A DNA stretch of 47,415 bases from an uncultured Mycoplasmatota bacterium (GTDB lineage Bacteria; Bacillota_I; Bacilli_A; RF39; UBA660). A model generated the notes under the pieces. It saw only the letters and a program-made list of their open reading frames with translations, did not search any database and had not been told where the DNA came from. This document shows positions 9,894 to 28,139 of the stretch, piece by piece; within the stretch, counting starts at the first letter, position 1; each line of letters starts with the position of its first letter. Made by a program: the position numbers and the translations under genes. The stretch lies in contig CAMOYI010000009.1 of assembly GCA_946629885.1 (NCBI GenBank), forward strand, positions 1 to 47,415, given 5' to 3'.

Positions 9894-10612
9894 ATCTAAA
9901 CATTAACGATTTTAATGGCCCATTAGATCTCTTATTGCATTTAGTAAAAGAATCTAAAATGGATATTTATGAGGTACCAATCGAAGAAATCACAAATCAA
10001 TATATCGATTATATTAATAGTCTAGAAAAGATGAATATAGATGTGGCTAGCGAGTATTTAGTTATGGCAAGTGAATTAGTATGCTTGAAGAGTAAGAGAC
10101 TTTTAAATATAAAAGAAGATGACGAAGAAGCAAATCAGTTAGAGTTTAAAATCGGAACCGAAGAAGAGCTCAGAAACAGATTAATAGAGTATCAAAGATA
10201 TAAAGAAATCACTGATAATTTTAAGGAATTAGAGCATAAGAGACAAGAATTTTTAACAAAAACACCGGAATCACTAGCAGAGTATAGGAGTGATATGCCT
10301 CTTGCTTCTGATATAACACTAGACGATTTGATTAGTGCCTTTAATAACTTTTTAGATAGACAAAAATTTATGAAGCCACTCAATACAAAGGTTACTAACA
10401 AAGAATTGAGCGTTACTAGAAGAACTAGTGAAATAAGGGCTTTGCTTGCAAAACATCATCGTATAGATTTTTTCGATTTATTCGAAGTAGTCGACAAGCC
10501 ATATATAGTAGTTACATTTTTGTCGATATTGGAAATGGCTAAAGCTAGTGAAATAGAAATAAAACAGGAAAAGAATTTTTCAAATATATTTATAGAATCG
10601 AAGGTGCAATAA
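9884..10612 (+). CDS. scpA: Segregation and condensation protein A
   Basis: FNGPLDLLLHLVKESKMDIYEVPIEEIT and downstream ScpB. Start may be TTG 9884 or ATG 9890. Confidence 0.93.
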   Translation: MQMNLNINDFNGPLDLLLHLVKESKMDIYEVPIEEITNQYIDYINSLEKMNIDVASEYLVMASELVCLKSKRLLNIKEDDEEANQLEFKIGTEEELRNRLIEYQRYKEITDNFKELEHKRQEFLTKTPESLAEYRSDMPLASDITLDDLISAFNNFLDRQKFMKPLNTKVTNKELSVTRRTSEIRALLAKHHRIDFFDLFEVVDKPYIVVTFLSILEMAKASEIEIKQEKNFSNIFIESKVQ

Positions 10613-11187
10613 TGAACAACTTGATGGGAGTATTGGAAGGCATTTTATTTGCAGTGGGAGATGAGGGAATTTCGCTCAAAGCTCTTTGTGAAGTCATGGA
10701 AATAGATGAGGACAAAGCAAAAGATGTACTTAAAGAATTACAAAAGAGATACGAGGGAAGTGAATATGGCATAAGAATTAGCTTTTTGGCAGATACATTT
10801 AAGCTTACTACAAAAAAAGAACACGCACCATATTATCAAAGATTACTTGGTAATCCTGAAACACAAACACTTTCTGAAACGGCACTAGAAGTGCTTGCAA
10901 TAATCGCGTATAATCAGCCTATTACGAGGGCATTAGTAGACGACTTAAGAGGTGTAGCATCATCTCAGATAATTAGAAAACTTTGCGCTAGAGGATTGAT
11001 TAAAATAAGTGGAAAATCCAGTATGCCAGGTAGGCCAAACCTATATAGTACAACGAGTGAATTTTTAGATTATTTTGGGTTAGCGAGTTTAAAAGATTTG
11101 CCTGAAATGAATAAGGAAGATCCTATAGAAGATAGCAATAAAGATTTGTTTACTTCTATATACAAAGAAAATCAAGAAGAACATTAA
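10612..11187 (+). CDS. scpB: Segregation and condensation protein B
   Basis: EGILFAVGDEGIS...LSETALEVLAIIAYNQPITRALVDDLRGV. Confidence 0.94.
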   Translation: MNNLMGVLEGILFAVGDEGISLKALCEVMEIDEDKAKDVLKELQKRYEGSEYGIRISFLADTFKLTTKKEHAPYYQRLLGNPETQTLSETALEVLAIIAYNQPITRALVDDLRGVASSQIIRKLCARGLIKISGKSSMPGRPNLYSTTSEFLDYFGLASLKDLPEMNKEDPIEDSNKDLFTSIYKENQEEH

Positions 11188-11208
11188 TTACGCTTCTTGA
11201 TTTTTTTG
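11170..11208. terminator. Bidirectional terminator shared by scpB and the yfhO-like gene
   Basis: AATCAAGAAG...CTTCTTGATT stem flanked by A-run and T-run at the converging gene ends. Confidence 0.75.
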
Positions 11209-13688
11209 TTAAATAAATATATTGTAGGTAATGATAGTATCGTTATGCATAAACTCATGTAGATGTGAGGAATAGTGTACTTTAATTCTATTACATGTTT
11301 TCCTTTTTCAATATCGAATGCAAGTAGGGTATTTCCTATCGCTTTTTTTTCAACCTTTTCTCCGTCTATGTATACATTCCAACCGGAATCATATGGAATA
11401 GAAGTATATACAAGCGAATCTTTATCGCCATCCACATTTGCACTGATATAGTGTTCACTAAATTCATCTATTTTAATTAAATTATCTTTTATCGTATTAT
11501 ATGACTCATTTAATGCATCTTCATCTACATAATATGCATAGAAAGCGTCATCTATGTAGTCTGAATAACCGATGTATATATCACGAGCATTTTCGACGTA
11601 TATTGTATAGTTTTCATTATAATCCGCGGAATCTATAACGTCTACTCCGATATCGTACCCGTAGTAGTAATCATCACTCATGTAGTAAAGTGTTCCATCT
11701 ATTATAACAAAATCAATACCTCCCTTAACTATATAAGTATAATAATTGTCGATAAAATCATTAGTTACATAGTGTATTACTGTTTTATCTCCTTCATAAT
11801 ACTCTGTGTAGTCAATTTCAAAGTTGACATTCTTGAGTACATCTTTAATTCCTGTAGATTTTTCAATAAAATCGTTTTGAATTTCAAAAGGATTTACATA
11901 TTCAGTGGACCAATCTATTAAGTCAGGATTTGATTTAAAAATTAGTGAAGTAGGGTATTCACTTCTATATGTATCATAGTTATCTGCACTTTCATATTTT
12001 TGATAATACTTTATAGGGTATCTACTAAATATGTATTTAAGATTGAACATCATACTGAATATTGGAGTATTTGGCTTATAGTAATGACTGTTGATTTCGT
12101 TACCGGGACTACCTAAAGCATGCATTAAAATTGCTTCATTTTCGTAACTCATGGAACTAAATGTAGTAAGGCCATAATAATCAAACCAATCTGGATCATT
12201 AAATGTTGTAATATATGGTCTATCTACTCTATATATATCACTATCATTATCACGAATAAACTCTAAAGAATTTTGAATATTACTATAATCGACATAGATA
12301 CTTTTCGTGTTATAAGATATGTTCCAATTCTCTTGATACTTTATAATACATTCTATACAAGCAGAAACAATGAAAAGTGTGACTGCGATAAAACTCATTT
12401 TTTTAAAGTATTTAAATGTCAATACGAAAGTAAAATAGCACGTAATAATAACTAGATTTAAGATAAACATATTTTCACTGAGATTATTAAAGTTTAAGAC
12501 TTTGGATAGAACTATAAATGCTATGCTAATAAGGTATGATATAATGAGCACAATGGTATTAATACTTTTTATTTTATCTAAGCTATAAGCACAGATAATT
12601 GTCGACATAAACACATAAAGAAATGAATATCTATATGGCAAATCATTTGGCACGTGTAGTCCATGCATGATGAAATCAAACTGAGGTACAATAAAACATA
12701 ATATTAAAAATAAGAGAGGAATTAGACATGTTAACTTTGTTTTTAACTCTATTTTTTTATTTAAGAAGAACGGAATAATTAACATTATAAAAAGTATACT
12801 TAAAGATATATTTGGTGCGTTCGTCTCTCCTGATGAAAAGACAGTTGTTCCCACACCAGATAAATGGTTGAAAATAAATTCTTTTAATGTAAATGAATAG
12901 TACTGACTTGTTGGCCAAGCATCACTCGTTGCACTTATACTATTAAGAGAAGTAAACATAGGGAAAATAACTAAAGCGCAGGTACATACTGATAAAAGAC
13001 TTGATAATATGAAATTACGAATTATTATTTTCTTATTATCCTTTTTTGATATAAGTATATATGAAATGAAATAGAATACTACAAAAATTGCAATCATATA
13101 GCCGATGAAATAGTTGGCATACATCATAAGCGACATAGTAGAGATATATAAAAGTATTTTATTATCATCCACGAGTTTTTCTACCCCAAGAATTATTAGT
13201 GGCAAGAAAATAATTCCATCTAGCCACATAATATTCCAGTAGTATGCCATAAAGTACGCTGAAAATGAATATAGAATAGATAGGGCAATCATAAGATAGT
13301 TACTGTTAAATTTTTTGTTTAATAGAGCCATCATAGCCATGCTAGATGCCGCAACTTTAATTGCAATAATAAAAGAGTACGATGTTATTATAGTCTTTTC
13401 ATTAAAGAAAAACATTATAATATTAAATGGACTGGATAAATAATTAAAGAAGTTTCTATAAAATGGTAAACCCAGTCCCATATTAAAAGAATATACAAAA
13501 CTTTTACCAGAAATTAACCTATTGAACATCTCTTTTAACATCGGAGCATACTGATGTAAAAAATCTACTGTCAAAAAGGATTTTTTCCCAAAGGGAGTAA
13601 TATCCTTTAAATACATTATCGATAAAACTAATAAAAGTGAAATTAATCCAGCTAACAGTAGTGGTATTTGTTTTTTAAATTTTTTCAT
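11184..13688 (-). CDS. YfhO family multi-pass membrane protein
   Basis: 834 aa; many TMs, FLTVDFLHQYAPMLKEMFNRLISGKSFVYSFNMGLGLPFYRNFFNYLSSPFN and terminal DSGWNVYIDGEKVEKKAIGNTLLAFDIEKGKHVIELKY typical of YfhO. Confidence 0.88.
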   Translation of the reverse strand: MKKFKKQIPLLLAGLISLLLVLSIMYLKDITPFGKKSFLTVDFLHQYAPMLKEMFNRLISGKSFVYSFNMGLGLPFYRNFFNYLSSPFNIIMFFFNEKTIITSYSFIIAIKVAASSMAMMALLNKKFNSNYLMIALSILYSFSAYFMAYYWNIMWLDGIIFLPLIILGVEKLVDDNKILLYISTMSLMMYANYFIGYMIAIFVVFYFISYILISKKDNKKIIIRNFILSSLLSVCTCALVIFPMFTSLNSISATSDAWPTSQYYSFTLKEFIFNHLSGVGTTVFSSGETNAPNISLSILFIMLIIPFFLNKKIELKTKLTCLIPLLFLILCFIVPQFDFIMHGLHVPNDLPYRYSFLYVFMSTIICAYSLDKIKSINTIVLIISYLISIAFIVLSKVLNFNNLSENMFILNLVIITCYFTFVLTFKYFKKMSFIAVTLFIVSACIECIIKYQENWNISYNTKSIYVDYSNIQNSLEFIRDNDSDIYRVDRPYITTFNDPDWFDYYGLTTFSSMSYENEAILMHALGSPGNEINSHYYKPNTPIFSMMFNLKYIFSRYPIKYYQKYESADNYDTYRSEYPTSLIFKSNPDLIDWSTEYVNPFEIQNDFIEKSTGIKDVLKNVNFEIDYTEYYEGDKTVIHYVTNDFIDNYYTYIVKGGIDFVIIDGTLYYMSDDYYYGYDIGVDVIDSADYNENYTIYVENARDIYIGYSDYIDDAFYAYYVDEDALNESYNTIKDNLIKIDEFSEHYISANVDGDKDSLVYTSIPYDSGWNVYIDGEKVEKKAIGNTLLAFDIEKGKHVIELKYTIPHIYMSLCITILSLPTIYLFNKKIKKRN

Positions 13689-13806
13689 ATTATCACCATA
13701 AAAATTATATCTTATTTTCTTTTTTTCGTAAACGGCAATTTACATTTGTTGAAAAATTAAAATTCGTCTGTTATACTAAACTTGGAATTTGAAAGAGTTG
13801 GGGGAT

Positions 13807-14985
13807 ATGCGTACTACTTATTATGAAAAATTACAAAACATTAATTTGGTAAGAAATGGTGAATATAGGTATACTACTGAAGACAAAGAATTAGATGAGT
13901 TTTTTGGCCTCAATAAACAATTTTACCTTTTACCAGATGCGAATAAAATTGTAGAACTTGCGAGTTATAACTTTTTATTTGCTATACTAGGATATCGCAT
14001 GACGGCGGTAACAAGCACTAAAGAAGGATACATTGCATCATATAGTGATAAAAGTGGAAAACACTTTGGTACTTTTTCAACTGGTATGATGTTTTCTGAG
14101 GAATATATATTAAAAAAAATAGTTGCAGCCTATAAAAAAGAAATTCGCAACATTAGTTTCAAAGGAGCACTATCGATCGATTATAGCCAACAAGATAGAA
14201 TTAGTTCTAAAGCTACAGGCGTTAGTTTACCAAAAGAAGTGGTTGATAAGCTCAATTTATATGGGAAAGTATTAAGTATTCTATCTCAAGACAAAACACT
14301 ATTGACCAGGTGCCGTTTGATAAGTGGCTCAATTGAGGATAAAGAGAGTATTGATTTTAGTTCATTCGATGAGGTCAATTTAAATAACTGTAGCGATAAC
14401 CATAGAATTCTTTGTAAGTTTATCTGTGGAAGTAACGAGGAATTATATAAATATTTAGATAACTATATCTGTTCGAAAGAGTCTTGGAAAAAGATGGATT
14501 TCGATGAAAGTTCAGTGCCAGATGAATTAAAAAAATCATTTGATGCTGCTAAAACAATTTTTGATAGTATATATGATAGTATAATAGATGGGTACCAGAA
14601 ATATTTCGGTAAACATAAAAATGCTGACGGAAATGCAGAAATTTATAATTTAGCAGATTCAGAGCTGTTTGACACCTATTTACCTCTTTTAACAAGCTAT
14701 GTAAATGAAAACTATCCGGATTGTAAAGATAAAACAGGAAAAGTGATGCAAGTATTTAGAGACATACTAAATATGTGTAAGACTGATTACAGTATAGATG
14801 TTGTCCTATGGGTTATGGAAAAAATAAAAAACATTACTGATGAATTTTTGCTTCCAGATGCTGCAACTAAGAGCGATCAAAGAGATGAATTGAATAGAAA
14901 ATTCGTAGAAATGGCTTTAAATCGAGCAGAAAACTTGGCCGCCGTTTTTGGTCAAACAGTATCTGGTGGTTCAATACAAATATAA
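13807..14985 (+). CDS. Protein of unknown function upstream of T4SS-like locus
   Basis: ORF 13789..14985, probable start ATG 13807; promoter TTGAAA-N17-TATACT upstream. Confidence 0.65.
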   Translation: MRTTYYEKLQNINLVRNGEYRYTTEDKELDEFFGLNKQFYLLPDANKIVELASYNFLFAILGYRMTAVTSTKEGYIASYSDKSGKHFGTFSTGMMFSEEYILKKIVAAYKKEIRNISFKGALSIDYSQQDRISSKATGVSLPKEVVDKLNLYGKVLSILSQDKTLLTRCRLISGSIEDKESIDFSSFDEVNLNNCSDNHRILCKFICGSNEELYKYLDNYICSKESWKKMDFDESSVPDELKKSFDAAKTIFDSIYDSIIDGYQKYFGKHKNADGNAEIYNLADSELFDTYLPLLTSYVNENYPDCKDKTGKVMQVFRDILNMCKTDYSIDVVLWVMEKIKNITDEFLLPDAATKSDQRDELNRKFVEMALNRAENLAAVFGQTVSGGSIQI

Positions 14986-15063: not shown

Positions 15064-15537
15064 ATGAACGGATTATTAGGAGCTATTACAACAAATATCG
15101 ATGAATTGTGCTACGATGCAGCACCAATATTGAAATTGGCTGGTTGGGTATTGACAGTATTTAAGATCGCTATTCCACTAATTATAATTGCTTTAGGTGT
15201 TGTGGATTTAGCCTCAGCAGCAATTTCAAGTAAACCAGAAGAGATGAAAAAGAGTATTACTAGTTTGGTATGGAGATTAGTAGGTGGTATTGCTATATTC
15301 TTCATTCCTACATTAGTTATGTTAGTATTCGGATTCATTTCTGATTACCGTGATGCAGAGAATGGAGTATCTTCTTGGCAAATTTGTTACAGTTGTATTA
15401 CTTCACCTTGGGACGATTATTGTTCTGTTGCTTCTAAAGCAAAAGGTGCAAACGTGTCTTATACAACATGCTTTGACCCAAAGGTGGAATCGGGCAGCGT
15501 GAAATTAGGCATCAAAAACGATGTTAAATGTAAGTAA
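15064..15537 (+). CDS. VirB2/TrbC-like pilin candidate with Cys-containing C-terminal extension
   Basis: 157 aa, two hydrophobic segments separated by a short charged loop, immediately upstream of VirB6-like gene. Confidence 0.6.
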   Translation: MNGLLGAITTNIDELCYDAAPILKLAGWVLTVFKIAIPLIIIALGVVDLASAAISSKPEEMKKSITSLVWRLVGGIAIFFIPTLVMLVFGFISDYRDAENGVSSWQICYSCITSPWDDYCSVASKAKGANVSYTTCFDPKVESGSVKLGIKNDVKCK

Positions 15538-15569
15538 AAAGTATCAAGTAATAGCTTGATACTTTTTTT
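15537..15569 (+). terminator. Strong Rho-independent terminator after the pilin-like gene
   Basis: AAAAGTATCAAG-TAATAG-CTTGATACTTTT plus T-run (12-bp stem). Confidence 0.9.
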
Positions 15570-15710
15570 ATGACTACATGAGTTAACTAAGTAATTTGTT
15601 AAAAGTATTCTTTGCATGAAAAATTATATTAAAAATAGCCTTTATTTGGCTGTCAATTTGTGTTATAATTTTATATGATTATATTTGTATAAATAGATTG
15701 GGTGAGTATT

Positions 15711-18017
15711 ATGGCAAGTGGATTATTGCTTGGAAGGTTTTTCATTATAACTTGGATTTTCAGACTCTTAATGTTTTTGGATAATTTACTTTTGAATTTG
15801 TGTAGGGCTTCGTATAGAGTTTTTGTCTATACTTCTCGTATTACCTTGATAAGCGGTGATCAGATTGAACTTTTCACAAATAGAGTTTATTTAATTCTTG
15901 GTATTGCACTAGTATTTATAATTGCGTATAACCTGTTAACTTATATAGTCGATCCGGATAAGATGTCCGATAAAAAAACAGGCGCAGCTGCATTTGTTAA
16001 AAACGTCATAATATCATTGACATTAATAGTTATTACTCCGATGGCTTTTGTAAAATTGTATTCTTTTCAAAATACAATTATTACAAATGGTATAATTGCC
16101 AATTTAATAATGGGAACGCCGTCCGATGGAACGGTTGATGTAGATGAAGATATGTCACCTAGCGAAATAGCTGATGAATATTTGGATAATGGAGCTAGAA
16201 ATATTACAGCTAGCGTGTATTCCTCATTTATTTTACCTACTGACAATGACTTTAGCGTGCTTGATTGTCCTACTACTAAAGCGGAACTTGCATCCTCAGA
16301 TCTTATAGGAGCCCACATGGATTATTGTGATGCATATTATGAAATGTTAGAAACGGGCAGTAACAGCGCATTTAGAGATCTTATAGACGATTACGAGGAG
16401 GAGTTCGATTATTATTTTTTAGTTTCCACAGCTGGAGTCTTAGCGATGCTCTTTTTCTTCGGATCATATTGTTTAGAACTTGGTAGACGTGCAGGCAGGT
16501 TGGCGATACTTCAACTACTAGCACCAATTCCACTTGCTATGGAAGTTATACCTGGTAGAAGTGGATCTCGACAGAGGTGGCTAAATGATGTCGTCAGCAC
16601 ATATTTAGATGTATTTATCTATCAGGCAACTATTTTTATCATCATTTTCTTACTACAGTTTGTTGGTCCTGCGGTTCAAAATTTGTTTGCATCAGCATAT
16701 AGTTCAGCCAGGGTTTTATTGTTAAATATTGAACCATCATTTCAAAACTTATTTTATTCAGCTAGCATAGGCTCTGCAATTGAACGAACTATCGCAATAA
16801 TATTCCTAGTATTCGGATTGTTTAAGTTTGGAAAAGAAGTACCTAAAATGATCGAAGACCTAATCGGAATAAAAGGTGCTGGTTCATTTGGAGATGTATT
16901 TAAGAGATCTCTTGCTATGGCAGGAGTTAGTGCAGGATTAATTGGTTCTACTGCAACAAGGTTTAGTAGAAACTACGCCAATACTGAGGGAACTAGGGGT
17001 CAAAAAATTATGAGTGGCGTTGCGGGTGCTACATCGGGTATTGCAAGGACTCTCTGGGGTGCTAGGAATGTTCATAGCATAAAAGATGCAAGGAATTTGC
17101 AAAGCAGAGTTAATAACCAAGTTTCTTCAGCCAAAGTAAGAAGAGCCAACTATATGTCTAGAGCACGTGAAAAGATATTGGATCCGAGTGGAAATGCAGG
17201 ATGGCTTGATACATATGCTCAGATGAAACGGGATAGACACTTAGAACGTAGTGAAGATAGACAATTTGCTAGACACGAAAGGTGGACAGGAAAATCGTTT
17301 GAGGCAGATAATGAAAGGTTGACAGCATTAGATACACTTAAAACAAGGACAAAAGGCGCAAACTTCAAACTTCGGGACGATGCCGAATATGCAGAATTTG
17401 ATAATCACGAAAGAGATTATAAACTCGAATATGACGCAAGTCAGAGAGAGTTCTTGAGATTAGAAGCATCTGCCGATGGACTAAGTGCTTTAAAGACAAA
17501 TTACTTGCAAAATCACGCGGGGAGCACCGACGACGATTTTTATAAGTGGTTAGGCCAAGACGGAAATGCATTTAGAGATGTTTATTCAAATGTTATAGAC
17601 GCTAGAAATCAAACGTTTGAGAAGGAAAATTTATGGCAAGAAGCTAAAGACAAGAAAGCAGACGTCGAGAAGAACATACTCGAAAAAAAGAAACTCAATG
17701 TTATAAGGCAATCTGCAGTTGAAACATTAGTCGAATTAAAGTCGAATCCATTATTGTCTAATTTGACGAATGCAAGTGGACAAAAATATTCCGATCTTCT
17801 TTCAAAACTTATAAACGACAAAGGTGAACTTCTCGATAGTAACGGTAATGCTATCGATCATCCAACCGCAGATCAAGTAAAAGCTATTCGTAAGATGACT
17901 AGCGAAATTTCTACAGCCGCTACAAATCAGATTACTCAAATTAACATCGACCGTGCATCACAAAGAAGAGAAAAAGAACTTAGAGATGCTAGACAAAAGA
18001 ATAACAACAATAAATAA
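15711..18017 (+). CDS. VirB6/TrbL-like T4SS membrane protein with long charged C-terminal region
   Basis: Multiple TMs in the N-terminal half (YCLELGRRAGRLAILQLLAPIPLAMEVIPG); RBS GGGTGAG before ATG 15711; followed by PrgI and VirB4. Confidence 0.75.
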   Translation: MASGLLLGRFFIITWIFRLLMFLDNLLLNLCRASYRVFVYTSRITLISGDQIELFTNRVYLILGIALVFIIAYNLLTYIVDPDKMSDKKTGAAAFVKNVIISLTLIVITPMAFVKLYSFQNTIITNGIIANLIMGTPSDGTVDVDEDMSPSEIADEYLDNGARNITASVYSSFILPTDNDFSVLDCPTTKAELASSDLIGAHMDYCDAYYEMLETGSNSAFRDLIDDYEEEFDYYFLVSTAGVLAMLFFFGSYCLELGRRAGRLAILQLLAPIPLAMEVIPGRSGSRQRWLNDVVSTYLDVFIYQATIFIIIFLLQFVGPAVQNLFASAYSSARVLLLNIEPSFQNLFYSASIGSAIERTIAIIFLVFGLFKFGKEVPKMIEDLIGIKGAGSFGDVFKRSLAMAGVSAGLIGSTATRFSRNYANTEGTRGQKIMSGVAGATSGIARTLWGARNVHSIKDARNLQSRVNNQVSSAKVRRANYMSRAREKILDPSGNAGWLDTYAQMKRDRHLERSEDRQFARHERWTGKSFEADNERLTALDTLKTRTKGANFKLRDDAEYAEFDNHERDYKLEYDASQREFLRLEASADGLSALKTNYLQNHAGSTDDDFYKWLGQDGNAFRDVYSNVIDARNQTFEKENLWQEAKDKKADVEKNILEKKKLNVIRQSAVETLVELKSNPLLSNLTNASGQKYSDLLSKLINDKGELLDSNGNAIDHPTADQVKAIRKMTSEISTAATNQITQINIDRASQRREKELRDARQKNNNNK

Positions 18018-18034
18018 GAAAGGAATAAAAGAGG

Positions 18035-18349
18035 ATGAATGGGAATTATTTGATACCAGCAAACTCCAAGAAGTCTGGTATGATACTAGGATTATTTATG
18101 CCAATTGATTTAATAATTTTTGGCTCTGGTGTGGGATTGACATTAATTCTATTAATGGCTATACATGCGACATCACTTTCCACAATTATAATTATACTCC
18201 TTCCTGCATTGATTAGTGGATTTTTGGTATTTCCTGTACCAAACTATCACAATGTTTTACAGCTAATTATTAATATAACTACATACATATTTAAACCAAG
18301 AGATTATATATGGAAAGGATGGAATTATAAAAATGGCGACAAAAAATAG
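18035..18349 (+). CDS. PrgI family / VirB3-like T4SS protein
   Basis: 104 aa, two TMs and end motif YIFKPRDYIWKG; directly upstream of VirB4. Confidence 0.75.
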   Translation: MNGNYLIPANSKKSGMILGLFMPIDLIIFGSGVGLTLILLMAIHATSLSTIIIILLPALISGFLVFPVPNYHNVLQLIINITTYIFKPRDYIWKGWNYKNGDKK

Positions 18350-18875
18350 TGAGGATTGGCTACCAATCAAAAGCATAACAAATGGACACATCATTTTAGA
18401 TGATGGAATGATGGTGACAGGAGTTAAAATTGAACCCAAAAATATATTTATACTCGATCAAGCAGTTCAAGCTAATGTCATAATGGAACTTAGAAACTTT
18501 TACAATACAATAGATTATGAATTTTGGTTGATATCAGCTGGTAGACCAGTGGACATCAACTTATATTTGGCAAGTTTACAAGTTCACTATAACAATACTA
18601 CTAGCCAACAGGTGAGAAAGCTTTTGATGCAAGATATAAATAAGGCAAATGAATTTATGAGTACACAGGCAAATGTTGTCGATACGGAATATTTTATTCT
18701 GTTTAAAGAGAAAAAACCTGAAATAATTCAAAAAAGGATTCAGGGGTTAATCAGTGGACTTGCTAGATGTACTTTAAATAGTAAGCAGGTATCTAATGAT
18801 GATTTAAGAATGATTTTAGATAACTTCTTTAATGGGGCAGAGGGATTTAGATTTGGAACGGTGACGAGTTTATGA
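18333..18875 (+). CDS. VirB4-type N-terminal domain as a separate ORF
   Basis: Resembles the N-terminal part of Gram-positive VirB4 proteins; overlaps the next ORF by ATGA. Confidence 0.65.
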   Translation: MATKNSEDWLPIKSITNGHIILDDGMMVTGVKIEPKNIFILDQAVQANVIMELRNFYNTIDYEFWLISAGRPVDINLYLASLQVHYNNTTSQQVRKLLMQDINKANEFMSTQANVVDTEYFILFKEKKPEIIQKRIQGLISGLARCTLNSKQVSNDDLRMILDNFFNGAEGFRFGTVTSL

Positions 18876-20653
18876 GTTTAAAAAGTGAAATAGCTCCTAA
18901 GGGAATGAGCTTTAGTCCTACACAGTTTAGAATAGGAGACAAATATTGTACAATTTTATCTGTGATAAGTTATCCTAAGTTTGTAGAACATGGTTATTTA
19001 GCCAATCTTACAAATATACCAGGTGTCAAGTTAGTTATTAAACATATTCCAATCGATTTTGCATTAATGCGTAAGATGATCGATAAAGAAATTGTCGATT
19101 TAAAGGACAGATTTCAAAAAGAACATGACAACACTCTTCAAGAAAGAATTAGACAAGATTACGAATCATTGGAAGACTTTATTCAACAACTAGCAGCGAC
19201 TAGTGCTAAAGTATTCGATTTTCAAATGCACATAATGCTTTCAGCAGACTCAAAAGAAGAATTGGAAAATAAAAAAACAGAAATAAAGACTTATATGGCT
19301 GGTATGGATTTGAAAGGTATTCCTCTAATGTTTGAACAAGAGAAAGTACTAAAGTCGATAATACCGATATTTCCAAAACAAGATATCGAAGATAGAATTG
19401 GTACTCCGATACCATCGAGTACAGTTGCTGCAATGTATCCATTCGTCTTTGATAGCATCAAAGATCCAGGGTTAAGTACTCTTTTAGGTGTCGATTTCTC
19501 AGGTGGAGTTGTACTATTTAACCAATTCTTATATCAGATTAAAAAAGAACATAATAGAAACAATGCTAACATGTTGATTTTAGGTTCTAGTGGCTCAGGT
19601 AAGTCTACTGCCGCTAAAATGCTTTTGCGTAGCCATTTTAGGAATGAATACAAGGTAATAGCAATCGACCCAGAGGGCGAACTAGAAGAGATGTGTCGCG
19701 CATTTAATGGTGACTTTATAAATCTGGGACGTGGTGGAGAGTATGGAATGATTAATCCATTAGAAGTTGTAATGGATGGCGATGATGAAGCAGGCGTTGC
19801 AAATGCAAATTCAATTCTTACACGTACACTTGCCAGTTTAAAAACATTTATGGTTTATTATAGTCCAGGTATCGAAGAAGATGTTCTTACATTATTTAGC
19901 GATGTTGTACAAGATACTTATAAGAGATTTAATATCGATTTTAATTCTGATTTTACACAATTTACTAGTGCTGATTATCCGACTTTTGACGATGTATACG
20001 CAACAGTAAAGGGTAGGTTACTGTCAATGCCAGAAAAAACTCGCGAAAGAGATATTATGGAAAGATTGGAACTAAAGATACGACCTTTAACAAAAGAATT
20101 AAGATATTATTTTAATGGTCATACTTCAGTTGAACCAACCAGCGACTTTATAGTGTTCAATATTAAGGAATTGATGAATAGCAGTACTTCTATAAGAAAT
20201 GCTCTGTTCTTTAACATCCTTAAATACGCATGGACACTATGTCTAGATAGAAATGTAAATACTGTTTTATCTGTAGATGAGGCACACGTATTATTGGGAA
20301 ATAATAACGAACTTGGTGCAGAATTCTTAGCCCAAATTCAAAGAAGAAGTAGAAAATACAATACTGGAACAATCATTATTACACAGCAACCGACTGACTT
20401 TGCAGCAGAAAATGTAATAATGCACGGTAAAGCAATTTTTGATAACGCTAGTTACTATTTGGCAATGGGATTAAAAAAACAAGCAGTTGAAGATTTATCA
20501 AAACTTGTAGATTTAAATGAAAATGAAATGGAAGCAATTAAACGTTTCGGCCAAGGTCAAGGACTATTTATTTGTGGATCGAGACGTATGCAAATAAATA
20601 TAGTATTGTCTCAGGATGAACTTGATTCATTAGGTTCAGGCGGAGGTTTATAG
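18872..20653 (+). CDS. VirB4-like T4SS ATPase
   Basis: Walker A GSSGSGKSTAAK, Walker B VLSVDEAHVLLG, IITQQPTDF. Confidence 0.93.
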   Translation: MSLKSEIAPKGMSFSPTQFRIGDKYCTILSVISYPKFVEHGYLANLTNIPGVKLVIKHIPIDFALMRKMIDKEIVDLKDRFQKEHDNTLQERIRQDYESLEDFIQQLAATSAKVFDFQMHIMLSADSKEELENKKTEIKTYMAGMDLKGIPLMFEQEKVLKSIIPIFPKQDIEDRIGTPIPSSTVAAMYPFVFDSIKDPGLSTLLGVDFSGGVVLFNQFLYQIKKEHNRNNANMLILGSSGSGKSTAAKMLLRSHFRNEYKVIAIDPEGELEEMCRAFNGDFINLGRGGEYGMINPLEVVMDGDDEAGVANANSILTRTLASLKTFMVYYSPGIEEDVLTLFSDVVQDTYKRFNIDFNSDFTQFTSADYPTFDDVYATVKGRLLSMPEKTRERDIMERLELKIRPLTKELRYYFNGHTSVEPTSDFIVFNIKELMNSSTSIRNALFFNILKYAWTLCLDRNVNTVLSVDEAHVLLGNNNELGAEFLAQIQRRSRKYNTGTIIITQQPTDFAAENVIMHGKAIFDNASYYLAMGLKKQAVEDLSKLVDLNENEMEAIKRFGQGQGLFICGSRRMQINIVLSQDELDSLGSGGGL

Positions 20654-20676
20654 CGTTTAGAAAGTAGGTGAAGGGT

Positions 20677-23046
20677 GTGGACGAAGAAGGCAAAAAGCAA
20701 GATAATCAACAAACTAGTACTGAAAAAGCCGCCACAGTTGGTCTTAAAGTTGCTGCCAACTCGCTTGCACCCGGCATTGGTGGAAAGGCTGTTAGTATTG
20801 CAAGCAAAACCAGAATAGGCCAAAAAATAATTAGGAAAACTGCTAGAGCGGTTGGAAACGTACCAGGTTTGAAGACAGCTACGACATTAGATAAAGCCGG
20901 ATTACCTGATATGGCCGATGGAACATCTCATTTAATTGGTAATGTCCCTACAGGTACAACAAATATTAACGGTGCCCCATCTTTAACCAATAATGGGCAA
21001 ACAATTGATAAAAGTAAAATTAATTCAGGCGATGGTAATAGTGGCTCAAAATCAAACAGTAAAAAATCTGCGGTGTCATCCAATCTAATCGAAAAAAAGA
21101 AAAAGAAACTACTAATATATTTGCTCGTTGGAGCAGTTGGATTAGCACTAGCTGGTGGGTTGTTATTTGTTGTTGTTTCTGCAGTACGTGCTCCTTTCGC
21201 TGCGGTGGAAAACTTCATAGATAATATATTTAATAGTGAGGAAACAGGTATTACTGAGGAAGAAGAAGCAGAAATAGATGAATCTTATAAAAATTATCTT
21301 TGTGGCGATGATAGTAGCGATGAGTGTGTGGAAAAATACGAAGATTACATCAAAAGTGAAAAAGACTTTTTAGATAGGTTTAAATCTATATCTAAAGCGT
21401 ATAATCTAACAACTCGTCAACAAAAAATATTATATCAGACCATTGTATTTGGATACTCCATAGATGAGATTAACCCAGGTGACACATATAACATTAATGC
21501 TACAGAAAATTCAGAAGACAACGTCTATGAAAAAGAGAAGGACACTATAAAAGATCTTGCCCAAGAGTTTAATGGTTATGAAGAAAACTTTTACGACTAT
21601 TTAATTACTTCAGATTTTTTTGACGATAGAAGACCACTTTCGAATTACTATAGCGAGTATGCTGCTTCAGTTGGATTAAATGCAGACAATATTTCCCACT
21701 GGAGTGATGATGACAAACAGAAAGTTAGAAAAAAAATTGTAAAAGATATTAAAGGAATGATGTCGGATTATTTTAAAGACGATAAGAAGAAAACTTTTAC
21801 AGCAGAAAAGACCGTAACATACAATTCTTTTGCTTGGTGGCCAATAGGTTCATTGATAACAAAAACTATCAACTTTCGCAACAAAATCATAGAATTTGCA
21901 AGTAATACTCCGGCATATACCAGCATTAGTAGTCCATTTGGTTATAGAACTCATCCAGTTACAGGTAAACAAGGTACATTCCACAATGGTATCGATATTC
22001 CTGCGGCGTTAAATACACCAGTTATTGCTTGTTTAAAAGGTACTGTAGTGGAGATTAACAATACATGTAGTACGACTGGATCTAAAGGTTGTGGTAGTGG
22101 ATATGGTAATTATGTTAAAGTTAAAACCCCTTCTGGGCTTTCTTACCTTTATGGTCACTTAGCAAAAGATTCAATTAAGGTTAGCGTAGGTGGAGAAGTT
22201 GAGCAAGGCCAAGTATTGGCAGGTGTAGGAAGCAGTGGTACTTCTACTGGATATCACTTGCATGCAGCTATAATAACCACGGCCGGTGAATTTGTAAACC
22301 CACTCGACTATTTAGATCCGAATAATACAAGAGGTGTTATAACGAGTACTGCGCCAAGTACAGGTTCCGGAAAAATAGACGATTCAGGAATTCCAGACCA
22401 ATGGAAAAACGCATTTAAGTTTATTGCATTTAACGAAGGTGGTTTTTCTGAAAGTAACAAAGTAATATGTAGTTTGGACAAATTGCCAACCTCAAGATAT
22501 GGAACACTTTTATATCATAGAAAAGAAGTTTATGCTAATAATGGTTTTGACCTAGTCAATATTCCTGTTTATGAAAAAGTTGAAAAGAATGGTAAAATAA
22601 GTTTTAATAAACTTCCTGATTATTCAAATTACTGTAGTGATATAGAATTATATGATGAAAATGGTAATGCCATAGAAAAAGGCAGATTTGTTGATGAAAT
22701 ACCTGAAAAAGTCGCAAAAGCGGGATTTGTCGACTTAATGGAATATTTTGCAAATGATGTTAAAAAATGGGCGTCCAAAAACGGTGTTACTTTAAGTAAA
22801 AATCAAGTAGATGCCATAGTAAGTTTATCTTGGAGTGGCCCAGCGGCACTAGAAAAATTTAAAGAAATGTATAAAAAATATGGATATAATAATGAAAAAA
22901 TATGCTCAAACTGGTGGCGCTCATATTTAGTAACCTCGTCTGCTGCTGAAGCACAAGGAAACAATGTTAATGAAGGATTAAAAAATAGGCGAAATCGTGA
23001 GTGTAATTTATTCTTAACTGGCGACTATGGTGAAGCGATAAAGTAA
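20677..23046 (+). CDS. T4SS-associated bifunctional cell-wall hydrolase: TM, M23 peptidase, lysozyme-like (GH24-type) domain
   Basis: M23 motifs HNGIDI and HLHAAI; C-terminal GLKNRRNRECNLFLTGDY like GH24 lysozymes; TM LLIYLLVGAVGLALAGGLLFVVVSAV. ORF also open from GTG 20668. Confidence 0.85.
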   Translation: MDEEGKKQDNQQTSTEKAATVGLKVAANSLAPGIGGKAVSIASKTRIGQKIIRKTARAVGNVPGLKTATTLDKAGLPDMADGTSHLIGNVPTGTTNINGAPSLTNNGQTIDKSKINSGDGNSGSKSNSKKSAVSSNLIEKKKKKLLIYLLVGAVGLALAGGLLFVVVSAVRAPFAAVENFIDNIFNSEETGITEEEEAEIDESYKNYLCGDDSSDECVEKYEDYIKSEKDFLDRFKSISKAYNLTTRQQKILYQTIVFGYSIDEINPGDTYNINATENSEDNVYEKEKDTIKDLAQEFNGYEENFYDYLITSDFFDDRRPLSNYYSEYAASVGLNADNISHWSDDDKQKVRKKIVKDIKGMMSDYFKDDKKKTFTAEKTVTYNSFAWWPIGSLITKTINFRNKIIEFASNTPAYTSISSPFGYRTHPVTGKQGTFHNGIDIPAALNTPVIACLKGTVVEINNTCSTTGSKGCGSGYGNYVKVKTPSGLSYLYGHLAKDSIKVSVGGEVEQGQVLAGVGSSGTSTGYHLHAAIITTAGEFVNPLDYLDPNNTRGVITSTAPSTGSGKIDDSGIPDQWKNAFKFIAFNEGGFSESNKVICSLDKLPTSRYGTLLYHRKEVYANNGFDLVNIPVYEKVEKNGKISFNKLPDYSNYCSDIELYDENGNAIEKGRFVDEIPEKVAKAGFVDLMEYFANDVKKWASKNGVTLSKNQVDAIVSLSWSGPAALEKFKEMYKKYGYNNEKICSNWWRSYLVTSSAAEAQGNNVNEGLKNRRNRECNLFLTGDYGEAIK

Positions 23047-23059
23047 CGGAGGTTTATTT

Positions 23060-23533
23060 ATGATAAAATCTAAAAAAGTTAAGACTGTATTAGTTATAAT
23101 ATTTGTTATACTAATGGCTATTCTACTTATATTGCTAAATAGACACCAAACATTAAAAAAAGAAAGAGACTATATTCAAGTTGAGAACATATCTACTTTC
23201 TTCACTATAGCGTCTACTGCCAATAGATATATAAGTTACTTATCTAATGGGCTAAGAGATAATTTAAATATGGTTCTAAGCAGTGATTACAATGCAGATG
23301 AAGAAATTAGCAAATTTAATAATATTAATGGATATATGTACACTTTAAAAGTTAAGAATATATATCAGGCGACAATAAGCAAACACAAAGTAAAATATTA
23401 TATTTATGGTTTACTTAGAAAAGAAGATATTGACGAATTTGATTATGGAACTCCATATTATCTTATAATCGATGTCGATAAAGACGATTATACATTTAAA
23501 GTAACTCCATATGATGGAAAGGTATTTAAGTGA
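23060..23533 (+). CDS. Bitopic T4SS protein, possible VirB8-like fold
   Basis: N-terminal TM plus about 120-aa extracytoplasmic domain, in T4SS gene string. Confidence 0.6.
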   Translation: MIKSKKVKTVLVIIFVILMAILLILLNRHQTLKKERDYIQVENISTFFTIASTANRYISYLSNGLRDNLNMVLSSDYNADEEISKFNNINGYMYTLKVKNIYQATISKHKVKYYIYGLLRKEDIDEFDYGTPYYLIIDVDKDDYTFKVTPYDGKVFK

Positions 23534-23537
23534 TCAT

Positions 23538-24005
23538 ATGAAAAAGGGAGATTTTAAACTTTTAGGTATAGCGTTAATAGTCTTAGTTCTAATTAGCGCT
23601 ATCATATATTTAGCATTTACTTCTAGTAATGATGATGAATATGTTTTTACCTTTCCGCTAGAGGAGACTGCCAACTATGCTGCAAATGAAATCATTCCAA
23701 TCTATGTGGAGGAAGAAGAGTTAGTGCAAAACTATTATGCCGAGTTTATAAACCTAATTGTAAACGATAGAGATAACGCATACAGTTATGTCAAAAGTGA
23801 TGTTAAAGAGATAGATTATCCGACTATTGAATTATTTAACAATAGAATGGATGAATTGATTGCAAGTGGAATACTAGAAAGTAGAGTAGAAAAATATCGA
23901 AAAGATGAGCAAGATGGTAAAACTATCTACTATGTTACTAATACGAATGGCAACAGGATAACTTTTATAGAGAGTTCCATTATGAATTATGAAATAATAG
24001 TATAA
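23538..24005 (+). CDS. Bitopic T4SS protein, possible VirB8/NTF2-like
   Basis: N-terminal TM and YYAEFINLIVNDRDNAYSYVKSDVKE segment reminiscent of NTF2-like domains; ORF also open from 23511. Confidence 0.55.
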   Translation: MKKGDFKLLGIALIVLVLISAIIYLAFTSSNDDEYVFTFPLEETANYAANEIIPIYVEEEELVQNYYAEFINLIVNDRDNAYSYVKSDVKEIDYPTIELFNNRMDELIASGILESRVEKYRKDEQDGKTIYYVTNTNGNRITFIESSIMNYEIIV

Positions 24006-24069
24006 ATTAATAGATTTTTCGTGAAAAATAATATATAATGATTACTTGATAGAAGGAAGAGGTCTTACT

Positions 24070-26391
24070 GTGAAATTAAAAATCAGAGTTAAAAAGAAGG
24101 ATTTTATTTATTTTGTTTTGATTAGTATCGTTCTCTTTCTTGGATGTTCTATACTAGCAATTAACTTTTTATCACTAAGTAAAATCGGACACTTAGTAGG
24201 ATTTAACTTGTTTAAATATTATGATATTACAGCATTTTCTTTAAGTTTAATCTTTTTTGTGGTCTCTATGGTATTTATCTTTATGAGTGTATCTAATACC
24301 ATATTTAACTTTGAAAAGGGTGGACTTGGTCTCGTATTTGGCGATAAAGATGAAAAGGGATATAACCGCTGGTTGACAACTAAAGAAATGAAAAAAGCTT
24401 GGGGTGTAAAGCCAGTTGTTATAAACAAACCTACAAGTGATGCCGGTGGAATAGTTTTGATAAATGACGGAAAAACGATGTGGGTAGATGATGGTGAATA
24501 TCATACGATGATTATAGGTCAATCTGGTAGTGGTAAAACTAGTGCTCTAGTCGACCCACAGGTCTATAGTTTATGTAAACATGGCGAGTCTATGATTATC
24601 ACTGACCCTAAAGGTGAAATATATCGTCGTCATGCTAACAGGTTAAAGGCGAATGGTTATAATATTGTTTGTATCAACTTTCGTGAACCTAGAGAAGGAA
24701 ATGCTTGGAACCCGTTGACAATCCCTTATAGAATGTATAAACAAGGAAAAATAGATAAAGCACAAGAATTACTAGAGGATATAAGCCAGAACATATTTAT
24801 ATCTCCTAAAAACCAAAATGACCCATTCTGGGAAAGTGCTTCGAGTGCATATTTTTCAGGATTAGGAATTGGTCTTTTTGAAGACGCTAAAGAAAACGAA
24901 GTAAGTATTTCTTCGATAGAATATATGTCAACTTGTGGAGAAGAAAAAAATGGACTTTCCACTTATGCTAAAGATTATTTTAATTTAAAAGGTGAATCTA
25001 GTAGTGCATATAAGTATGCTAAAGCAACTATTACTGCGCCTAATGATACTAAATCGAGTGTACTATCAGTATTCCAGGATAAGATTAAACACTTTGCTTC
25101 TCGTCCAGAATTGTCCGAAATGCTTTCTTATTCAGACTTTAACATGGAAGATATAGGAAAAGAGAAAACAGCAGTGTTCTTGATAGTACATGATGAAAAG
25201 ACAACTTATCACTCATTAGCGACAATCTTCATAAAGCAATTATATGAAGTACTTATCGATGTTGCTCAAAAAAGTCCAAAGGGTGAATTGAAATTTAGAA
25301 CGAATTTCATTTTGGATGAATTTGCCAACATGCCTGCCTTAAAAGACGTTACTTCTATGGTAACGGCCGCGCGTTCTAGGAAAATTAGATTTACATTTAT
25401 AATTCAGAACTTTGCCCAGTTGGACGAAGAATATGGTGATAAAAATGCTGAGACTATAAGAAGTAACTGTGGAAACACTATATACTTATTGACAAATGAA
25501 TTGGCAGCCCTTGAGGAAATCAGCAAGCTATGTGGAGAAGTTAAATCAAAAGAAAAAGAAAAGACTGTATCTACACCTCTTGTAACTGTAACAGACTTAC
25601 AGAAAATGAAAAGAAATGAAATAATAGTTATAAGAATGCGTATGAGACCGTTTAGGACAATTTTAAAAGGCGCATATGAAGTCGATTGGGGAGATAATTA
25701 TGAAGAAGCAGCCCTTCCGGAAAGAGAACAAGCACCAATAAAATTATTCGATATGAAACAATATGTAAAAGAAGAGAAACGAAAAAAGACTATGGAAGCA
25801 ATCAACGCGGCGCAAAACAATACAGCTGGTTCTGGATTAAATCCAACTTCAGAAGTTAATCCTTTTCAAGATCCGTTTAAACCTGTATCGGATCCGTTCA
25901 TGGATCCATTTAAGTCACCATCAGATCCATTTAAACCCGCAACAGACCCATTTGCAAATCCATTTAAACCTGCATCGGATCCGTTTGCAAATCCTTTTGG
26001 AGGATTACCAAGCTCAGTTCCTAAGAGTAATGATACATCGCCAGTTTCAAATGTTCCACCAAAAGATGATGAAGTCGACATCGACGAGTTAGTTAAAAAT
26101 ATCGATGCTCAAATCGCTGAACTAGAAAAAGAACAGCAGGAAAAGAAGAAAACTGAAAAACCAAATGATAATATTAGTAGTATGTTCGATTTAAAAGAAA
26201 TGTCTTTAGACTTAAATGATGAGGTTAATAGTAATCCGCAACCTGCGAAGAAGCCTAGCATACAAGAAAATGTTATTAATACTGAAGATAATAAAGATAA
26301 AGTGGCTGTAGACAATTCTAGTGTCATTATGGATAATCAAGTAGTCACAGATGATCAATTTTTTGACGATTTTTTCGGTGATGATGAATAA
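24070..26391 (+). CDS. VirD4/TraG type IV coupling ATPase
   Basis: Walker A GQSGSGKTSAL, TDPKGEIYRRHANRLKANGYNI, FILDEFANMP, FIIQNFAQLDEEYG; RBS AGGAAGAGG then GTG 24070. Confidence 0.93.
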   Translation: MKLKIRVKKKDFIYFVLISIVLFLGCSILAINFLSLSKIGHLVGFNLFKYYDITAFSLSLIFFVVSMVFIFMSVSNTIFNFEKGGLGLVFGDKDEKGYNRWLTTKEMKKAWGVKPVVINKPTSDAGGIVLINDGKTMWVDDGEYHTMIIGQSGSGKTSALVDPQVYSLCKHGESMIITDPKGEIYRRHANRLKANGYNIVCINFREPREGNAWNPLTIPYRMYKQGKIDKAQELLEDISQNIFISPKNQNDPFWESASSAYFSGLGIGLFEDAKENEVSISSIEYMSTCGEEKNGLSTYAKDYFNLKGESSSAYKYAKATITAPNDTKSSVLSVFQDKIKHFASRPELSEMLSYSDFNMEDIGKEKTAVFLIVHDEKTTYHSLATIFIKQLYEVLIDVAQKSPKGELKFRTNFILDEFANMPALKDVTSMVTAARSRKIRFTFIIQNFAQLDEEYGDKNAETIRSNCGNTIYLLTNELAALEEISKLCGEVKSKEKEKTVSTPLVTVTDLQKMKRNEIIVIRMRMRPFRTILKGAYEVDWGDNYEEAALPEREQAPIKLFDMKQYVKEEKRKKTMEAINAAQNNTAGSGLNPTSEVNPFQDPFKPVSDPFMDPFKSPSDPFKPATDPFANPFKPASDPFANPFGGLPSSVPKSNDTSPVSNVPPKDDEVDIDELVKNIDAQIAELEKEQQEKKKTEKPNDNISSMFDLKEMSLDLNDEVNSNPQPAKKPSIQENVINTEDNKDKVAVDNSSVIMDNQVVTDDQFFDDFFGDDE
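25858..26001 (+). repeat. Degenerate in-frame repeats encoding DPF/NPF motifs
   Basis: Translation NPFQDPFKPVSDPFMDPFKSPSDPFKPATDPFANPFKPASDPFANPF. Confidence 0.9.
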
Positions 26392-26493: not shown

Positions 26494-26748
26494 ATGAAAG
26501 AAAAACTAGAAACAATTAAAGAAGCAATTACTAAGCCAATGGAGGATATGCAAATAATTGTAGACGATGTAAAATTTGTCAAAGAAAAAGGATATAGATT
26601 TTTAAAAATAACATTGGATAAAGTCAATGGTCTAGATATCGATACTGTCGTAGAAGCGACACGCGTAATCGACCCAATAATCGATGAGTTAGATTTGATT
26701 GATGAAGAATACGTTTTAGATATTTCAAGCAAGGAAAGAGGTAATTAA
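26494..26748 (+). CDS. rimP: RimP, N-terminal domain only
   Basis: 84 aa; GYRFLKITLDKVNGLDIDTVVEATRVIDPIIDELDLIDEEYVLDISSKERGN* directly upstream of nusA. Confidence 0.8.
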   Translation: MKEKLETIKEAITKPMEDMQIIVDDVKFVKEKGYRFLKITLDKVNGLDIDTVVEATRVIDPIIDELDLIDEEYVLDISSKERGN

Positions 26749-26749
26749 A

Positions 26750-27865
26750 ATGAACGGAAAAGAATTTATTAAAAATGTCAAAAAAGTTGCTGAAGAAAAG
26801 GGAATTGATGAAGAAATAATATTCGAAGCAATGGAACAAGCTTTAATCACAGCATATAAGAAAAACTATAATTCAAAAACTAATGTAAAACCGCGCGTAG
26901 ATAGAAAAACAGGCGATATTAAAATATTTTCATATTACGTCGTAGTAGATGATTATATAGATCCTGAGGTACAAATAGATGAAGAAGGTAACGAAGTAGT
27001 TGTTGAGCCAGATATTCCAGTTGATGCCCAAATATTATTAGAAGATGCTCAAAAGAAGGTGCCAGATATTAAGATCGGTGAAACGATAGAAGAAGAAGTA
27101 ACTCCAGATGATTTTGGACGTGTTGCAGTTCAAACTGCTAAACAGGTTTTAATTCAAAAGATTAGAACAGCTGAGCGTGAAAGCATTATGCTCGACTTTG
27201 CTGGTAAGGAAGGCGAAATAATGTTAGGAATGCTTGCAATGGAAGATGAAAAGAACTACTATGTCGATTTGGGTCGAGCTAGAGGTATTCTTCCAAAGTC
27301 AGAGATGATTCCAGGAGAAGTCGTAAAAATGGGATCTAGCATTAGAGTATATCTTCAAAAAATAACAGAAACTCCTAAGGGACCACTTATTCTTTGTTCA
27401 AGAAAACACTATAATTTTGTAAGACGTCTATTTGAAAGTGAAATACCTGAATTAATAGATGGAACTGTTCTATTATACGGAGTTGCAAGAGAAGCAGGAG
27501 TCAGAAGCAAGGTCGCTGTTTATTCTCAAGACGCTAATGTGGATGCAAAAGGAGCATGTATTGGAGAAAAAGGATCTAGAATTGGTAACATTTTAAGGGA
27601 ATTAAATGGAGAAAAAGTCGATCTAGTACTATATTCTGACAATATTGAAGAATTCATAAAAGAGTCTCTTAGCCCAGCTAAAAATGTCTATGTCAACATA
27701 GAAGAAAACGGCGAAAAAAATGAAGCTCTTGTCGTTGTCAGTGATGACGAATTGAGTCTTGCAATCGGCAAAGGTGGAATAAACATAAAGCTTGCTAGCA
27801 AACTTACAAAATATCACTTAACTATCAAGTCCATGAGTCAAGTAACTGAAGAAGGTAATAAATAG
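26750..27865 (+). CDS. nusA: Transcription termination/antitermination factor NusA
   Basis: S1/KH architecture; EKGSRIGNILRELNGEKVDLVLYSDN; SLAIGKGGINIKLASKLT. Confidence 0.96.
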   Translation: MNGKEFIKNVKKVAEEKGIDEEIIFEAMEQALITAYKKNYNSKTNVKPRVDRKTGDIKIFSYYVVVDDYIDPEVQIDEEGNEVVVEPDIPVDAQILLEDAQKKVPDIKIGETIEEEVTPDDFGRVAVQTAKQVLIQKIRTAERESIMLDFAGKEGEIMLGMLAMEDEKNYYVDLGRARGILPKSEMIPGEVVKMGSSIRVYLQKITETPKGPLILCSRKHYNFVRRLFESEIPELIDGTVLLYGVAREAGVRSKVAVYSQDANVDAKGACIGEKGSRIGNILRELNGEKVDLVLYSDNIEEFIKESLSPAKNVYVNIEENGEKNEALVVVSDDELSLAIGKGGINIKLASKLTKYHLTIKSMSQVTEEGNK

Positions 27866-28122
27866 TGAAAGAAAAAAAAGTGCCAATGCGCATGTGCGTA
27901 GTAACGCACGAAAAATTTCCTAAAAGGGAGCTTATAAGAGTAGTAAGTTTTAATGGTGAAATAAGCGTAGATGAAACTGGTAAGAAAAACGGTAAGGGAT
28001 GCTATTTAAAAAAAGACATCTCTGTTATTGAAGAAGCTAAAAAGAAAAAAATATTGAATAGAGTTTTCTCTTGCGAGATAGATGAAAAGATATATGATGA
28101 AATAATAAAATTAATTAATTAG
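27865..28122 (+). CDS. ylxR: YlxR family RNA-binding protein
   Basis: MRMCVVTHEKFPKRELIRVV...GRKGxGxYL-like KNGKGCYLKKD; between nusA and infB. Confidence 0.9.
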   Translation: MKEKKVPMRMCVVTHEKFPKRELIRVVSFNGEISVDETGKKNGKGCYLKKDISVIEEAKKKKILNRVFSCEIDEKIYDEIIKLIN

Positions 28123-28139
28123 AAAGAAGGTGCATTTAC

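Follow-up and report, generated by a model that had tools for sequence, protein, structure and literature searches.

A vertically inherited type IV secretion system of a Bacillota family and its possible role in contact-dependent protein export

The window considered here, i.e. the whole stretch of DNA that was analysed, comprises 47,415 nucleotides from an uncultured Mycoplasmatota bacterium of the family UBA660 (order RF39; GenBank assembly GCA_946629885.1, contig CAMOYI010000009.1) and represents contig C9 of a metagenome-assembled genome (MAG), termed G000, which has a size of 0.96 Mb and is 70% complete. Positions 15064 to 26391 encode a full monoderm (MPF_FATA-like) type IV secretion system (T4SS), and comparison across the family shows the locus to be intact, family-wide, vertically inherited and located outside any mobile element.

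Gene content of the locus

An earlier reading of the window, made from its letters alone (the sequence-only reading), had described a co-directional T4SS locus corresponding to the gene set of Gram-positive conjugative systems. This description holds: all nine plus-strand open reading frames (ORFs) are present at the positions it had assigned (Table 1), and Pfam and NCBIfam profiles together with structure predictions reveal VirB4- and VirD4-type ATPases, accompanied by VirB3-, VirB6-, VirB8- and VirB1-like partners but no outer-membrane core, as in monoderm MPF_FATA-type systems. The profile assignments are firm for VirB4, VirD4 and the M23 peptidase, and weak for the pilin and PrgI. PF18895 is matched by 27 of the 54 sampled short relatives of the window pilin, and relatives of the VirB6-like protein match TrbL_4 (E=6.8e-7) and TrbL (E=4e-4). 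The hydrolase, which had been announced as an M23/GH24 protein, retains its M23 part, while the C-terminal lysozyme match is marginal (Phage_lysozyme, E=0.047). Both proposed VirB8-like proteins are predicted to adopt NTF2-like folds, and the VirB8 homologues CagV, TrwG and TcpC are among the weak Foldseek hits obtained for the first (E about 0.02).

The distribution of VirB4 over two ORFs, likewise noticed early, is a conserved trait. PrgI, VirB4N and VirB4C align consecutively to a single fused ATPase of 894 amino acids (aa) from mycoplasma integrative and conjugative elements (ICEs), NF045975, so that the two-ORF VirB4 constitutes a genuine domain split. VirB4N is a separate gene in 33/33 sampled relatives (mean column identity 61%), of which two show the weak TrsD match. 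The order pilin(s)-VirB6-PrgI-VirB4N-VirB4C is held in about 110 loci, as far as the contigs extend, and the presence of separate PrgI, VirB4N and VirB4C genes in these loci rules out a frameshift, pseudogene or other lesion. Moreover, the Walker A motif of VirB4 is intact in 110 of 111 relatives.

Table 1. Features of the T4SS locus, its relatives and its flanks (window coordinates unless a locus, L, is named; pLDDT, predicted local distance difference test).
Feature	Position	Strand	Evidence or remark
T4SS pilin, PF18895-like; two hydrophobic segments, Cys-rich tail	15064..15537	+	PF18895 E=6e-4, below cut-off
VirB6-like polytopic channel protein; long hydrophilic C-terminal region	15702..18017	+	No Pfam match itself; conserved position
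PrgI/VirB3-like membrane protein	18035..18349	+	TcpE E=0.003; NF045975 positions 2-97
VirB4N, stand-alone VirB4 N-terminal domain, TrsD-like, 180 aa	18333..18875	+	NF045975 positions 102-276, E=1.3e-14; TrsD E=0.0023
VirB4C, motor ATPase	18872..20653	+	TraG P-loop E=1.9e-13; NF045975 positions 294-889, E=1e-106
Membrane-anchored M23 peptidase with lysozyme-like domain (VirB1 role)	20668..23046	+	Peptidase_M23 E=1.9e-21
VirB8-like NTF2-fold membrane protein 1 (predicted)	23060..23533	+	AlphaFold2 pLDDT 86
VirB8-like NTF2-fold membrane protein 2 (predicted)	23511..24005	+	AlphaFold2 pLDDT 81; weak NTF2-like Foldseek matches only
VirD4 coupling ATPase; variable linker, conserved C-terminal tip VTDDQFFDDFFGDDE	24046..26391	+	T4SS-DNA_transf E=1e-51; NF045973 above cut-off
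DPF/NPF-rich repeat in VirD4 C-terminal linker	25861..25998	+	Direct-repeat family D1
VirD4 acidic-aromatic tip region	26300-26391; another example L109:15077-17896
Pilin domain fused to ectodomain or C39, NlpC/P60, M23 or YkuD-like domain	L100:5824-6960; L081:3372-4367; L058:17245-18348; L103:374-2833
Pilin fusions of G000	L293:6069-7745; L294:5327-6682		Contigs C48 and C35
scpA-scpB, upstream flank	9884..11187	+	Pfam SMC_ScpA, SMC_ScpB
yfhO-like membrane protein between scpB and T4SS	11184..13688	-	PF09586 E=6e-130
398-aa ORF between yfhO and pilin	13789..14985	+	T4SS membership uncertain; singleton in locus clustering
rimP-nusA-ylxR-infB, downstream flank	26494..30236	+	Pfam RimP, NusA, YlxR; IF2 via family-wide orthologues

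Inheritance and genomic position

Across a sample of 145 genomes, about one per genus of the family, a VirB4C orthologue occurs in 121 and VirB4 or VirD4 in 130, mostly in single copy. One of the 15 T4SS-negative genomes, G083, belongs to the window's genus; since its assembly is also devoid of nusA and infB, the T4SS region is probably just missing from it. VirB4C is 64-74% identical between genera (partial copies up to 78%), and, in the genomes sampled across the class, VirB4 identity above 60% is restricted to the family, matches outside it dropping to at most 35%; plasmids reach 31%. In addition, conservation of VirB4C exceeds that of IF2 in 111 of 112 genomes (mean identity 68.7 vs 60.6%). 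The trees of both proteins for 51 genomes have 23 of 48 splits in common, as against no more than 3 at random, with a Mantel r of 0.61, while only a single VirB4C split conflicts with IF2 at support values of at least 95 on both sides. The dN/dS ratios, a check that the sequence-only reading had proposed, amount to 0.013 for VirB4C and 0.022 for the VirD4 motor relative to the nearest relative G145, as compared with 0.019 for NusA and 0.022 for IF2, although these values are rough because synonymous sites are near saturation. Between the window and G145, the motors are 95-97% identical (VirB4, 97%), whereas parts exposed at the cell envelope, namely the M23 protein (44%) and the VirB8-like proteins (60 and 48%), diverge fast, as does the VirD4 linker (56%).

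None of the hallmarks of an ICE, i.e. a relaxase, an integrase or att repeats, and a patchy, horizontally spread distribution, was found. Neither Pfam nor NCBIfam profiles detect a relaxase among the ORFs of the T4SS locus, each of which is either a T4SS part or unmatched; no integrase is present among the scanned flanking ORFs (Pfam), and the repeat search yielded no convincing att-like direct repeats spanning the flanks. Throughout the 145 genomes, no match to the relaxase family PF03432 lies within 70 kb of the T4SS, other relaxase families not having been searched genome-wide. The nearest such match on a T4SS-bearing contig is 72 kb away; PF03432 matches occur anywhere in the genome in 33/145 cases, and none was obtained in G000, a 70%-complete MAG. 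Hence, the earlier view of a domesticated apparatus lacking relaxase and integrase, rather than a current ICE, is borne out by the family-wide and mostly single-copy distribution, tree congruence, purifying selection and the lack of nearby PF03432, while the function that this apparatus serves is a matter of inference.

A different T4SS, featuring a fused VirB4 of about 786 aa (about 34% identical), is found in G083 (C17, L148), G003, G025, G094 and G143, and a weak relaxase match is located a few kb from the fused-VirB4 T4SS of L148 and similar loci. These loci are likely the actual conjugative elements of the family. In G102 (C18, L160), two VirB4-type ATPases stand in tandem, a fused 778-aa form (40% identical) directly preceding PrgI-VirB4N-VirB4C.

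The locus is flanked by housekeeping genes, namely those for SpoIVA, ScpA and ScpB upstream and for RimP, NusA, YlxR and IF2 downstream, in line with the initially proposed location between scpAB and rimP-nusA. On the contrary, scpB is not a direct neighbour, as the yfhO-like gene and the 398-aa ORF, which is without Pfam or NCBIfam match, intervene. Inheritance of scpB-T4SS-rimP, which the sequence-only reading had proposed to check, applies to one side: T4SS-rimP-nusA linkage is retained in G145, G146 and G148 of the same genus, and in G150 with one additional gene, while the scpB side is less stable. In G034, a member of a different genus, scpA-scpB-rimP-nusA are contiguous (L298) and the same T4SS is located on another contig. 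Thus, the position between scpB and rimP results from a derived intragenomic relocation in the window's genus, while the T4SS itself is ancestral to the family; the empty site, which had been named as a sign of ICE insertion, does exist but does not indicate one. A second T4SS copy (68% identical) is present in G146 (C35, L147) besides the one at rimP and could represent duplication, transfer or contamination of the bin (5%). Apart from the 398-aa ORF, two further large ORFs of the window, 7050-8981 (643 aa) and 4529-6988 (819 aa), are without Pfam match, as is the former.

Pilins, the VirD4 tip and the Tad pilus

In 74 of 77 loci, virB6 is directly preceded by a pilin-type gene, and up to eight such genes occur per locus, the window locus having one. 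A profile built from the short relatives of the window pilin retrieves 100 fusion proteins in 61 loci, in which a large exported ectodomain with a median of 285 residues is followed by a C-terminal pilin domain; 98 of them possess an N-terminal hydrophobic segment, and some of the ectodomains are Peptidase_C39_2, NlpC/P60, M23 or YkuD-like. G000 carries two pilin fusions among housekeeping genes elsewhere in its genome, an ectodomain-pilin (C48) and a pilin-C39-like protein (C35). Several mycoplasma-type genomes of the class, which are TGA-recoded (G337, G393, G296, G431 and G471), likewise have PF18895 pilins at a distance of a few kb from VirB4, so that monoderm T4SSs with pilins are not confined to Patescibacteria. 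The notion of PF18895 pilins as a trait of Patescibacteria and RF39 only was rejected in view of matches elsewhere in Bacilli.

VirD4 orthologues terminate in a variable linker followed by a near-invariant DD(E/Q)FFDDFFGDD or close variants thereof. This tip is present in 55 of 64 complete relatives according to a strict pattern, also in copies situated away from VirB4, and did not appear in any further protein of the examined loci. Short conserved tips following a disordered linker are typical of docking motifs. The fact that VirD4 orthologues are about as widespread as VirB4 and keep the tip when relocated suggests directed recruitment of a substrate. The DPF/NPF repeats of the linker were considered as a conserved eukaryotic-type motif and rejected, their copy number ranging from 0 to 10 across relatives.

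In many other genera, TadA, TadB, TadC, Flp, TadE and CpaE-like genes of a Tad (type IVc) pilus precede the T4SS pilins and form one cluster with the T4SS, the Tad names being presumed from sequence features rather than from profile matches in Pfam. A TadA orthologue is present in 119 genomes of the family. Of the 52 genomes with TadA and VirB4C on one contig, 49 have TadA on the same strand as VirB4C and 6.4-12.6 kb upstream of it. The co-occurrence of T4SS and Tad (115/15/4/11 for both, T4SS only, TadA only and neither) is significant by Fisher's test (p=7e-7) without correction for phylogeny. In G015 and G047, VirD4 stays beside the Tad genes while VirB4 is found elsewhere. The frequent position of the T4SS beside genes of a sticky pilus suggests a use in contacting or acting on other cells rather than in spreading DNA. 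Linkage is not universal: 36 of the 75 loci with 8 kb of visible upstream sequence show no Tad gene there, a number that includes the window's genus as well as contigs that end before TadA would be reached. The Tad locus of G000 (TadA, TadB, TadC, Flp, TadE, CpaE-like) resides on contig C7, which is without T4SS genes, and an exported protein of 916 aa, whose family is unknown, is encoded there upstream of TadA (L279, G000:C7:1-15000). We know of no previously described Tad system that forms one cluster with a VirB/VirD4 T4SS, and a literature search revealed no description of such a cluster.

Function and related systems

Judged by published description, the nearest described parallel is the T4SS of Patescibacteria. 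According to PMC12102498 and PMC12857230, this system is of MPF_FATA origin, comprises PrgI, TrsD and VirB4, peptidase and lysozyme genes adjoining virB4 and pilin arrays, is mostly devoid of a relaxase and is essential for epibiotic growth in Saccharibacteria. Common features are a chromosomal, relaxase-less, MPF_FATA-derived locus with PrgI, a separate TrsD-type VirB4 N-domain and VirB4, after which peptidase and lysozyme genes follow. Both systems also have divergent arrays of pilins recognised by PF18895, occur in small genomes and are accompanied by a type IV pilus. The window family displays this architecture, albeit with a weak TrsD match and, in the window, one pilin. On the other hand, the host is a Bacillota family instead of a member of the candidate phyla radiation, VirD4 is usually situated inside the locus, two NTF2-fold VirB8-like proteins are predicted, and the accompanying pilus, a Tad pilus, is often encoded in physical linkage with the T4SS. 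For Patescibacteria, the consulted passages of the two papers describe neither fusions of ectodomains to pilins nor the VirD4 tip.

On this basis, the T4SS is considered, with a probability of roughly 0.5, a core contact-dependent protein-export machine that is paired with a Tad pilus and parallels the patescibacterial system. The Tad pilus would capture or hold a neighbouring cell, the M23/lysozyme-like protein would open the cell wall, VirB3/4/6/8-type proteins would form the membrane channel, and the pilins and pilin-fused ectodomains a short surface structure, while VirD4 might recruit a substrate or adaptor through its acidic-aromatic tip. This substrate is thought to be protein rather than relaxase-bound DNA, and the likeliest targets would be other gut bacteria, via antagonism or a Patescibacteria-like attachment or epibiotic relation. 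A bolder version, which we regard as rather doubtful, envisages Tad and T4SS as one coupled contact-and-delivery machine, core to the whole Bacillota family, that delivers pilin-fused wall-active enzymes and VirD4-recruited proteins to the surface or the interior of adjacent bacteria; the hosts might then be epibionts or predators convergent with Patescibacteria, and their VirB4 perhaps close to the donor lineage. Several points weigh against export as the function. The hydrolases fused to pilins could just serve to remodel the wall of the cell that makes them, VirD4 belongs to the conjugative coupling-protein family NF045973, and VirD4 is not essential in Saccharibacteria according to PMC12102498, so that VirD4-dependent export may not be the core role. 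Furthermore, Tad linkage is an inherited arrangement that is missing in the window's genus, 15 of the 130 T4SS-positive genomes are without a close TadA orthologue, the genome-wide relaxase search covered the PF03432 family, and the system is known here from the genes of uncultured MAGs.

It is conceivable, if rather doubtful, that the T4SS exports few dedicated effectors and instead constitutes a surface organelle resembling a pilus, or a conduit, by which the cell attaches to a partner cell and exchanges nutrients or signals with it. The pilin arrays and ectodomain-pilins, the Tad linkage and the small genomes agree with such a role, as do 14 of 62 loci that keep pilins, VirB6, PrgI and VirB4 with no VirD4 nearby, and a 2025 review speculates on an attachment or exchange conduit for the Saccharibacteria T4SS (PMC12857230). 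The retention of VirD4 about as widely as VirB4, with its tip kept even upon relocation, speaks for directed substrate recruitment instead. Improbable in our view is a machine for DNA uptake or release, ComB-like or resembling that of the gonococcal island, for which the Tad pilus would capture DNA. ComEC is encoded in 128 of 145 family genomes, and there are reports of DNA uptake with the help of Tad pili in Liberibacter (PMC8513845) and of natural transformation by means of a T4SS in Helicobacter (PMC13395361). However, ComEC persists in most T4SS-negative genomes and does not track the T4SS; DNA uptake is therefore not tied to it, and ComEC-dependent uptake as the sole role is disfavoured. 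Moreover, a coupling protein is retained here, while ComB-type uptake is not known to have one.

A resident conjugation channel that mobilises elements with relaxases encoded elsewhere in the genome, or that employs an unrecognised relaxase, would accord with a VirD4 of the conjugative CD1115 family and with the PF03432 matches present somewhere in 33 genomes. Such a role seems hardly probable, given that most T4SS-positive genomes have no PF03432 match at all, that several matches sit a few kb from a different VirB4 (e.g. in G134 and G143), and that the channel is kept by selection throughout the family, an outcome that service to parasites leaves unexplained. A recently inserted, decaying ICE that has lost its relaxase would agree with the empty scpB-rimP site in another genus, yet that genome carries the same T4SS elsewhere, and intact motifs, purifying selection, vertical inheritance and the lack of att-like repeats contradict decay; the family-wide distribution refutes this explanation.

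According to the 2025 review, it is surprising that nearly all known Gram-positive T4SSs move DNA only, and whether some of them are dedicated effector translocators is a long-standing question (PMC12857230). A Bacillota family with a relaxase-free, pilin-bearing T4SS offers a concrete and testable system in this respect, and it constitutes an independent parallel, or possibly a relative, of the essential patescibacterial T4SS. It also points to cell contact as central for these small-genome, mostly gut-dwelling uncultured bacteria, many relatives of the window bacterium bearing record names that point to rabbit, rumen, mouse or chicken sources. A search of the open-access literature on RF39 or UBA660 in connection with VirB4, T4SS or secretion systems yielded no account of the system.

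Among named VirB4 families, the best match is NF045975 (Mbov_0397) of mycoplasma and Spiroplasma ICEs, which unite in one protein what three genes encode in the window family; PF18895 pilins near VirB4 are shared with several mycoplasma-type genomes. Those ICE systems are mobile, whereas the present T4SS is inherited, relaxase-free and at most 35% identical in VirB4 to any match outside the family. Regarding Tn1549/CTn-type modules (VirD4 CD1115, VirB4 CD1110), the window VirD4 passes the NF045973 cut-off, while VirB4 remains under that of CD1110 and the locus, unlike those modules, is without relaxase match, integrase and att. Finally, the one reported Gram-positive effector exporter according to PMC12857230, the 89K T4SS of Streptococcus suis, has the core VirB1/3/4/6/8/D4 set and a proposed role in protein export in common with the window system; 89K is a mobile pathogenicity island, whereas the present system is core to its family, has pilins and shows linkage to Tad.

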